Below are positions 13,428 through 32,600 of a stretch of DNA of 64,000 nt, piece after piece. Source of the DNA: Clostridiales bacterium. Lineage in GTDB: Bacteria > Bacillota > Clostridia > TANB77 > CAG-508. The position numbers and the translations under genes are program-made. The notes under the pieces were generated by a model. It worked only from the letters and a program-made list of their open reading frames with translations, made no database searches and was not told the origin of the DNA. The DNA is taken from assembly GCA_015056485.1 (NCBI GenBank), contig SVGD01000002.1:1-64000 (forward strand). The letters are read 5' to 3'. Position 1 is the stretch's first letter, and the number at the start of each line of letters is the position of its first letter.

Positions 13428-13510
13428 GCGGATGTGGCGGAACTGGCAGACGCGCTGGTCTTAGGAACCAGTACTTCGGTGTGGAGGTTCAAGTCCTCTC
13501 ATCCGCACCA
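13428..13510 (+). tRNA. tRNA-Leu (anticodon TAG)
   Basis: Acceptor GCGGATG (13428-13434) pairs with CATCCGC (13500-13506), A discriminator and encoded CCA at 13508-13510. Anticodon loop CTTAGGA gives TAG, reading CUA. Long variable arm (TACTTCGGTGT) and T-arm GGTTCAAGTCC. An intrinsic terminator follows at 13516-13541. Confidence 0.96.
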
Positions 13511-13515
13511 GATAA

Positions 13516-13541
13516 AGACTAACGAAAGTTAGTCTTTTTTT
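13516..13541 (+). terminator. tRNA-Leu terminator, first copy
   Basis: AGACTAAC-GAAA-GTTAGTCT hairpin followed by seven T. Part of the 53-base block 13494-13546 that is repeated at 13661-13713. Confidence 0.9.
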
Positions 13542-13546
13542 GTATT

Positions 13547-13660
13547 CTAACGAGAGGACTTGAAAAGGAGGTTGCCAAGTTTCGAGCAGGTCTGAGGCCT
13601 GCCGAAACGAAGGCTAAAATAGTCCGGTGGACTATTTTACCGACGCGCTTGACCGGAGGC
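13547..13660 (+). mobile_element. Structured insert between two copies of the tRNA-Leu 3' end
   Basis: A 114-base insert flanked by direct repeats (13494-13546 and 13661-13713, 52 of 53 identical) made of the T-stem 3' strand, acceptor 3' strand, CCA and terminator. Its left end is an inverted copy of the T-loop/T-stem (GAGAGGACTTGAA). It then shows AAAAGGAGG, a hairpin (GTTTCG-A-GCAGG / CCTGC-CGAAAC), a perfect hairpin AAAATAGTCC-GGT-GGACTATTTT, then CCGACGCG and CTTGAC. The same core is found next to the tmRNA at 32483-32556. GC-rich against its surroundings. Confidence 0.65.
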
Positions 13661-13713
13661 TCCTCTCATCCGCACCAGATAAAGACTAACGAAAGTTAGT
13701 CCTTTTTTGTATT
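13661..13713 (+). repeat. Second copy of tRNA-Leu 3' end and terminator
   Basis: TCCTCTCATCCGCACCA plus the terminator hairpin and GTATT tail, identical to 13494-13546 except T to C in the U tract. It is not a tRNA gene: the 5' half is absent. Confidence 0.9.
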
Positions 13714-13772
13714 AAAATCAAACCTCATTGTGTTTTTTTAAATTGTATAACCCATGCAAAGTAGCAGATTAA

Positions 13773-13801
13773 TTGATTTTTGCATTGATTTGTGATAAAA
13801 T
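13773..13801 (+). promoter_or_regulatory. Promoter of the 13850 gene
   Basis: TTGATT (13773-13778), 17-base spacer, TGA-TAAAAT (13796-13801). The leader has a GTTAC/GTAAC hairpin, then AAGGAGG. Confidence 0.65.
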
Positions 13802-13849
13802 TAAAGTAGTTACTTTTTCGTAACCATTAAATTTAAGGAGGATCACTTC

Positions 13850-14188
13850 ATGGAAATCATTAACGCAAGAATCAAAAATGTAACTGTAGGTTTGGACGAT
13901 CGGGATAGATTGGCCGCAAATATGACTTTTGAATGTCCGCACGGCTCCTGTTCCTGGGGATTCATACTGACCAATCCGACAGATTCTCAGCGTCTTTTAA
14001 AGCTTCTGCAGTATACAGGCGCAAATGAGGTCAATAATCTGAACGGCAAAATCGTTCGTGCAATCAATCATGATTGTTGTTTCGCAGGATTCGGAGATCC
14101 TATCAAAGATGAGTTTGTTCCTACTTTTGGCGAAGAACTCAAGGAAGTCACAGAAGTTCAGTTTAAAGAACTTCTGGAAACCAAATAA
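13850..14188 (+). CDS. Small protein of unknown function, lone gene
   Basis: 112 residues, ATG 13850 behind AAGGAGGATCACTTC. Contains Cys residues in two groups (FECPHGSCSWGF near residue 28 and NHDCCFAGFGDP near residue 78) that could bind a metal (inference). Codon use is richer in GC than in the flanking genes, and codon 18 is CGG (13901-13903, DDRDR), read as sense; if CGG were skipped the frame would stop within eight codons. Own promoter and terminator. No family recognised. Confidence 0.7.
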   Translation: MEIINARIKNVTVGLDDRDRLAANMTFECPHGSCSWGFILTNPTDSQRLLKLLQYTGANEVNNLNGKIVRAINHDCCFAGFGDPIKDEFVPTFGEELKEVTEVQFKELLETK

Positions 14189-14203
14189 AGTTTCATTTAC
14201 TCC

Positions 14204-14242
14204 TTACAAGACCACCTTAATACATGAAGGTGTCCTTGTTCA
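14204..14242 (+). terminator. Terminator of the 13850 gene
   Basis: ACAAGACCACCTT / AAGGTGTCCTTGT hairpin followed by TCATTTT. Confidence 0.7.
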
Positions 14243-14430
14243 TTTTAGATGCCACAGATAAAGGCTAACTTTTGTTACTCTTTTTTTGTATGTTAATATT
14301 GTAAAATAAAAAAAGAAAATCTATTGCTTTGAAAAACATTTTATGTTATGATTTTTTATAGGCAAAAAATATAAATTCTATAAATATTTTATTATTTTCG
14401 CCTGTATTTCCAATTTTTTGGAGGGGAAAA

Positions 14431-32420: not shown

Positions 32421-32482
32421 AAAAGATAAAACCATACCGTTAGGTGTGGTTTTATCTTTTTTGGTGGAGATGGAGGGAGTCG
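32421..32482 (-). repeat. Second copy of tmRNA 3' end and terminator
   Basis: 32462-32482 repeats the 21 bases at 32601-32621 (T-stem 3' strand, acceptor, CCA); 32424-32460 repeats the terminator but with the hairpin core in reverse-complement orientation relative to 32566-32600. The tmRNA body is absent here, so this is not a gene. Confidence 0.88.
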
Positions 32483-32556
32483 TCAAGCCGCGTCGGGAAA
32501 AAGGTCCACTGGACCTTTTTCTATTTCCTCCTTTTCGACTCCTCAATCTTTATTCA
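32483..32556 (-). mobile_element. Structured insert between two copies of the tmRNA 3' end
   Basis: On the minus strand: an inverted T-loop/T-stem copy (GAGGAGTCGAA), AAAAGGAGG, a perfect hairpin AAAAAGGTCC-AGT-GGACCTTTTT, then CCCGACGCGG, CTTGAC and the direct T-stem copy CGACTCC. GGAGTCG and CGACTCC pair. The core (AAAAGGAGG, GTCC..GGAC, CCGACGCG, CTTGA) is the same as at 13547-13660. Confidence 0.65.
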
Positions 32557-32600
32557 AAAAAACACAAAACCACACCTAACGGTATGGTTTTATCTTTTTT
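32557..32600 (-). terminator. tmRNA terminator
   Basis: AAAACCATACC / GGTGTGGTTTT hairpin directly after CCA, T run downstream. Confidence 0.85.

Follow-up and report, generated by a model that had tools for sequence, protein, structure and literature searches.

The 3′ end of a tRNA-Leu gene in the window (the whole 64,000-nucleotide stretch of a Clostridiales bacterium contig, SVGD01000002.1, that was analyzed) is duplicated around a structured hairpin, and genome comparison indicates that this locus is a member of a mobile family, whose mobility is well supported. The mobile unit appears to consist of a tRNA 3′ end from C56 on, CCA, a terminator, and the hairpin, sited between T55 and C56 of the T-loop (T55|C56). 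Comparison with empty sites shows the exact unit at two loci, tRNA-Asn and tmRNA. By the same comparison, the unit would regenerate the tRNA gene and displace the native 3′ end downstream. The anatomy and the unit are established here, and no description of such a hairpin cassette family was found in the literature searched.

The tRNA-Leu locus and the mobile unit

The closest relative among the genomes compared (G117) was used as the reference for empty orthologous sites; the present genome is labeled G000. A 53-nt block occurs twice at tRNA-Leu (13494–13546 and 13661–13713) with one difference, as originally predicted, whereas the predicted spacing of 167 bases between the copies proved to be the start-to-start period. 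The inverted copy of the T-arm that had been noticed there (GAGAGGACTTGAA) is present at 13552–13564 and is complementary to 13488–13500. The folding of 13547–13713 gave a z score of −4.95, and none of 200 shuffles was as good. In an Rfam search, the structured stretch matched no family above the gathering score and none even at a permissive threshold. The features of the repeat (13428–13713) and of a second unit in the window are as follows.

13428–13510, + strand: tRNA-Leu (anticodon TAG), from ARAGORN and Rfam tRNA; from C56 on, part of the inserted unit in the proposed model
13488–13496, + strand: T-loop TTCAAGTCC (T54–C62), with the proposed insertion point T55|C56 at 13489|13490
13490–13656, + strand: putative inserted unit of about 167 nt (tRNA 3′ end, CCA, terminator, and hairpin), from the period of 167 and the lack of the hairpin and second copy in G117
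13511–13551, + strand: terminator and spacer of the unit, an inverted repeat and T-run identical to the single terminator of G117
13556–13562, + strand: left arm GGACTTG of the outer stem P1, complement of C56–C62, from P1 covariation; the longer extension 13552–13564 is the inverted T-arm copy
13563–13571, + strand: conserved spacer AAAA and inner-stem strand GGAGG, from the alignment and pair counts
13574–13614, + strand: variable hairpin, long class only, from the fold and the mismatch counts given below
13616–13638, + strand: P3 hairpin AAAATAGTCC-GGT-GGACTATTTT, from the fold and pair counts
13640–13647, + strand: inner-stem partner CC and invariant GACGCG (CCGACGCG), from the alignment and pair counts
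13661–13713, + strand: displaced native tRNA 3′ end, CCA, and terminator (second copy), from the 53-nt repeat and comparison with G117
32483–32621, − strand: second unit, 139 nt, in the tmRNA T-loop; minimal class without the variable hairpin, from the G117 empty site
32430–32482, − strand: displaced native tmRNA 3′ end and native terminator, from comparison with G117

The insertion point at tRNA-Leu was placed at T55|C56 because C56 is the start of the direct copies in most family members and because of the Asn and tmRNA empty sites. The right edge of the Leu unit is uncertain by a few nucleotides, since the right arm of this copy is degenerate. In G117, the tRNA-Leu and its terminator are identical to those of the present genome, and the hairpin is missing. 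As both 3′ ends match G117, import and local duplication are indistinguishable at this locus. Downstream, an ORF of 112 amino acids (13850–14189, within 13714–14291) is missing from the orthologous G117 site and has no Pfam match. Downstream of this ORF (14255–14291), the tRNA-Leu terminator recurs a third time in degenerate form, as if the ORF had come in at the same tRNA-Leu.

At tRNA-Asn, the present genome reads GGTT[CGAGTCC...GAGCCA-terminator-hairpin-GGCTTGA]CGAGTCCAACTTGATG, where the bracketed part is 171 nt, and G117 reads GGTTCGAGTCCAATTTGTTG. When the 171 nt are removed, the flanks match G117 over 600 nt at 99.3%. The empty site in G117 holds a truncated T-half only (CGAGTCCAATTTGTTG), left by another insert; thus, the intact tRNA 3′ end probably arrived with the unit, and so did its terminator. 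The terminator of the Asn unit also differs from that of the upstream tRNA-Asn. At the tmRNA, the flanks joined after removal of the 139 nt align to the G117 empty site over 600 nt at 98.2%, and the hairpin scored 84.3 bits with the second covariance model (32476–32542, minus strand). The distal copy carries the native terminator of G117, and the proximal terminator hairpin, that of the unit, is its reverse complement. It had been supposed that the element copies target sequence. The Asn and tmRNA empty sites indicate instead that the tRNA 3′ end and the terminator are part of what the unit imports on entering at T55|C56, and a long target-site duplication made by insertion was dropped as an explanation after these sites were compared.

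Two marks of a tRNA-targeted integrative island were found, namely a regenerated target with a displaced fragment and a precise empty site in the relative G117. Empty-site pairs alone are insufficient to tell gain from loss, because precise deletion between direct repeats leaves the same "empty" allele; the patchiness of the family and its sharing between genera point to gain. Distal tandem copies are often truncated on the right side, which would fit the newest copy lying next to the tRNA and would also be explained by later deletion.

Hosts and fold of the hairpin family

The present genome was searched with the Leu stretch and then with a covariance model, and seven copies were found: at Leu, Gly (two in tandem), Asn, Tyr, Phe, and tmRNA. 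The suggested search for the core at other tRNA genes thus gave six more loci in this genome, and 51 other genomes of the family carry the hairpin. In all, it is present in 52 of 145 genomes and 20 of 39 genera of the same family (uncultured gut Clostridia MAGs), patchily and usually with 1–7 copies per genome. Among the 86 copies listed, those with a recognizable tRNA reside at Leu, Gly, Asn, Tyr, Phe, Gln, Arg, Lys, Ser, Cys, Thr, and Glu, in addition to tmRNA. The right-hand direct copy starts at C56 of the T-loop at most loci (12 tRNA types and tmRNA), and this start is also seen at Pro in another family. The hairpin starts on average 49 nt from the tRNA end (range 19–62 nt, where a tRNA was found within 110 nt).

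Divergent copies occur in other Clostridia families, again 3′ of tRNAs: at Tyr in families f170 and f152 and at Asn in an Oscillospiraceae MAG. Family f12 has three tandem copies at Pro and two at Ser, and f160 has a different core at Arg. A phylum-wide sample yielded no credible copy outside the class. The weak phylum matches of the first model (G481, G147, G306, G413, G436, and others) looked like chance hairpins or tmRNA on inspection, and the actinobacterial, haloarchaeal, and single viral pattern matches were regarded as chance. The nearest neighbor of a core lies in another genome and at another tRNA in 47 of 69 cases, and two genera have an identical core, the first at Arg(CCT) and the second at tmRNA. 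These data bear out the original prediction of a very small element inserting at tRNA 3′ ends, with many tRNA types, empty orthologous sites, and cores common to several genera. A core confined to this locus and the tmRNA, with no empty sites and no conservation, had been named as the opposite outcome and is not what was found.

At nine loci (L052, L059, L069, L074, L075, L081, L086, L087, and L119), the hairpin is preceded by the 3′ part of a tRNA only, which might reflect later entry of larger integrative elements into the tRNA, at the anticodon loop or closer to its 3′ end. At one tRNA-Gln locus (L091, G102:C2), the left arm spans 20 nt and repeats the whole tRNA 3′ end in inverted form, and the right copy is only 12 nt, an asymmetry that is the reverse of the usual one.

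The hairpin measures 66–117 nt across the family and takes three forms: a minimal core of 66 nt, one of about 80 nt, and a long one of about 100–117 nt with an additional variable hairpin. In an alignment of 29 distinct sequences reduced to the common 66 columns, the left arm GGANTYG forms the 7-bp outer stem P1 with C56–C62 of the following tRNA 3′ end. The unpaired spacer AAAA, opposite GCGGCYYGC, is followed by a short inner stem and then by one or two terminal hairpins; the tip of P3 is GTCC-RGT-GGAC. The fold is strongly supported by covariation. In the 29 sequences, 98.8% of the paired cells are complementary, and 14 of the 20 pairs have changes on both sides. The covariation score was 0.389 versus 0.114 for shuffled alignments (0 of 500 shuffles reached it), and the signal was lost on sliding. 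The inner stem covaries as GG/CC, AG/CT, GT/AC, and GC/GC, and the f170 copies have GGCGG/CCGCC in place of GGAGG/CCGAC. The left and right arms are complementary at 648 of 735 positions (shuffles, 547; maximum, 564); the left arm therefore tracks the T-loop of its own tRNA. Mismatches in the variable hairpin, scored symmetrically, were 29 G·T and 5 A·C, which implies that the tRNA-sense strand is the folding strand. P3 is Watson–Crick at 953 of 960 pairs and has no strand bias (G·T 3, A·C 4), and the tRNA stems at the same loci contain 195 G·T among 2845 pairs (2650 Watson–Crick).

A 42-nt inner part (GGAGGATCAG-AAAACAGTCC-RGK-GGACTGTTTT-CCCGACG) was also found in plasmids of Paracoccus, Phaeobacter, Rhodobacter, Rhizobium, and other Alphaproteobacteria (loci L328–L333 and L337–L352). 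This GGAGG–hairpin–CCGAC motif has the same inner stem and P3 hairpin, down to the GTCC-RGK-GGAC tip, but it lies away from tRNAs and lacks the T-loop arm. Several copies are in or beside transposase genes (IS110, IS3, and IS481-like). Homologues of two of the loci lack about 41–45 nt, and two loci have the right flank in common but not the left. The likeness may reflect common descent or a shared recombinase signal. Entry of the 42-nt hairpin into the loops of pre-existing stem-loops was considered and is not claimed, as the complementarity of the flanks was marginal (3.81 versus 3.47 bp, p about 0.03).

Other inserts were seen behind tRNA genes. A different one lies 3′ of tRNA-Asn on contig C10 of the present genome (L004:240–430) and is the same in G117. 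It combines an inverted copy of the 5′ side of the D/anticodon arm (ACAGCCGAGCGC) with a CTGCC-GGT-GGCAG hairpin and with a displaced tRNA copy that runs from the anticodon stem on. This insert resembles a cassette of a similar kind for which the anticodon loop would be the site, and a search of its own genome found that copy only. In G117, an insert of about 200 nt interrupts the anticodon loop of tRNA-Tyr (L326); by eye it resembles a group I intron, and the orthologous tRNA gene in the present genome has no insert. A sequence resembling a promoter (AAATATAGGAAAT...) recurs 3′ of G117 tRNA-Leu (L272) and 3′ of tmRNA (L266); the roughly 110 nt that follow it look like a hairpin RNA, and these loci may represent a family of small RNA genes. 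Another repeat, (A)CGTATCTGTTCGAACTAA..TTGAACAG.., lies behind tRNA 3′ ends, often directly 3′ of CCA (L065, L120, L121, L265, and L277).

Proposed mechanism and alternatives

Here, we propose a mechanism to which we give an even chance: the unit is a protein-free mobile cassette that undergoes folded-strand recombination and is moved in trans by a recombinase, most likely a tRNA-targeting tyrosine recombinase. The unit would enter the tRNA gene between T55 and C56. An intact tRNA 3′ end would be restored from the unit, and the native 3′ end would be pushed behind the hairpin, so that in repeated copies the newest would be the one adjoining the tRNA. The hairpin would be the recombination site, folding in a single strand. 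Its left arm would pair with C56–C62, the seven bases with which the next tRNA 3′ end begins, to form a 7-bp outer box, followed by the unpaired spacer (AAAA/GCGGCYYGC), an inner box, and a variable tip, which is an attC-like layout. The recombinase supplied in trans would join the folded strand to the T-loop.

Action as DNA is favored because the terminator usually lies between the tRNA and the hairpin. An intrinsic terminator precedes most hairpins, and the spacer of ~10 nt has no evident promoter; these features and the near-perfect compensatory changes point indirectly to single-strand DNA. No gene was found within any copy, and the units of 139–171 nt thus hold no tyrosine integrase. An integron integrase was rejected as the mover, since none of the 145 genomes has a match over the TIGR02249 cut-off. 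A reverse transcriptase was also rejected for lack of enrichment: RVT_1 is found in 35 of 52 carriers versus 94 of 145 genomes overall, 17 of the 52 carriers have no match, and G117 has four hairpin matches and no reverse transcriptase. Generic tyrosine recombinases are everywhere in the genomes examined, and none is linked to the hairpin.

Several observations count against this mechanism. A circle of 139–171 bp is very small for double-strand recombination. P3 shows no strand bias, and the core is conserved in primary sequence, unlike attC. The mechanism also does not explain by what route a unit would gain the 3′ end of another type of tRNA and a left arm to match. As the 7-bp arm needs one or two base changes (N59 and R57), selection or palindrome correction may suffice for the arm.

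A possible but rather unlikely alternative is that the units belong to ordinary T-loop-targeting (class II) islands or phages, either as attP-only remnants or as satellites. Their tyrosine integrases would then recombine the units as normal double-stranded DNA, with the hairpin as an attachment arm. A regenerated target with a displaced native fragment is the mark of such islands (PMC4383910). T-loop integration is known for Ms6, which can be retargeted by changing the 7-bp loop (PMC1762012), and other integrative elements seem to split these tRNAs beside hairpins. Against this, no full-size element among the listed copies ends in the hairpin, which starts 19–62 nt past the tRNA where one lies within 110 nt; phages gave no match and viral contigs a single, evidently chance one; and a double-stranded attP does not need strict covariation of a 66-nt fold.

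Spread with no enzyme, by replication template switching or slippage between T-loops, seems improbable to us. It would explain the tandem copies, the partial second copies, and the near-perfect palindromes: the units within a tandem hardly differ, several second copies have lost part of the right side, P3 is closer to perfect Watson–Crick pairing than the tRNA stems, and the terminator hairpin at the tmRNA is inverted. It does not readily account for the same insertion base at most loci across 12 tRNA types and tmRNA or for the foreign terminator in the Asn unit, and the sharing between genera would exceed local slippage.

We consider it quite improbable that the hairpin acts as RNA, as a T-loop intron-like or retro-mobile RNA or as a regulator or decoy of the T-arm. 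The excess of G·T in the variable hairpin, by which the tRNA-sense strand folds, and the complementarity of the left arm to T54–C62 would suit this reading. The terminator upstream of the hairpin, the lack of an evident promoter, the reverse transcriptase counts, and the lack of an Rfam match argue against it. The original prediction of an RNA decoy of the T-arm/acceptor accordingly found little support, with a terminator before most hairpins, no promoter in the spacer, and a core that moves between tRNAs. An assembly artefact or chance repeat has a negligible probability: several contigs end at the repeats, but many projects independently yielded MAGs with the copies, and distant taxa have them with compensatory changes, which excludes the artefact originally allowed for.

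Comparison with known systems

At 140–170 bases and without a protein, the cassette seems to be among the smallest known site-specific mobile elements. It would make the tRNA trick of genomic islands (to break the gene and bring its end along) feasible for a gene-free unit under 180 bases, and one hairpin family can serve many tRNA types. The cassette gives a small system in which folded-strand recombination could be tested outside integrons, and a possible ancestor or parallel of attC sites. Annotation may be misled, as displaced tRNA 3′ ends and contig breaks accumulate at cassette loci. We only tentatively raise the further proposal of a new class of mobile element, in which a tRNA 3′ end is the cargo, the folded strand is the recombination site, and the T-loop of almost any tRNA is the target, with other targets in Alphaproteobacteria for that core hairpin and, as the recombinase, a host or helper protein of a kind not known to act on folded strands.

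MITEs and REP/BIME are likewise short, palindromic, non-coding, dispersed, and patchy. The cassette differs in its fixed tRNA site, in apparently lacking a transposase-type target-site duplication, and in that no partner transposase was found; its inverted arms are present but vary with the tRNA, and no autonomous partner was seen. With tRNA/tmRNA genomic islands of the Islander type, which use tyrosine integrases, the cassette shares the split T-loop, internal regeneration, a displaced native 3′ fragment, and tandem accretion, whereas its unit is 139–171 nt, has no integrase or other gene, and uses one hairpin family for many tRNA types.

In integrons, the outer box of attC is completed by the next cassette. 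The hairpin cassette likewise has a folded site at the unit end, an outer 7-bp box completed by the next unit, an unpaired spacer, an inner box, and a variable tip. An attC strand folds into R and L boxes, and the folded strand recombines with a double-stranded target; attC is defined by the AAC/GTT crossover triplet and has little sequence conservation (PMC4792948). The folded site with paired R/L boxes and an unpaired spacer is matched here in layout only. The hairpin cassette differs in having no IntI, in its junction, which is TT|CRANTCC and not the AAC/GTT triplet, in its T-loop target, in carrying a tRNA 3′ end rather than an ORF, and in its conserved core.
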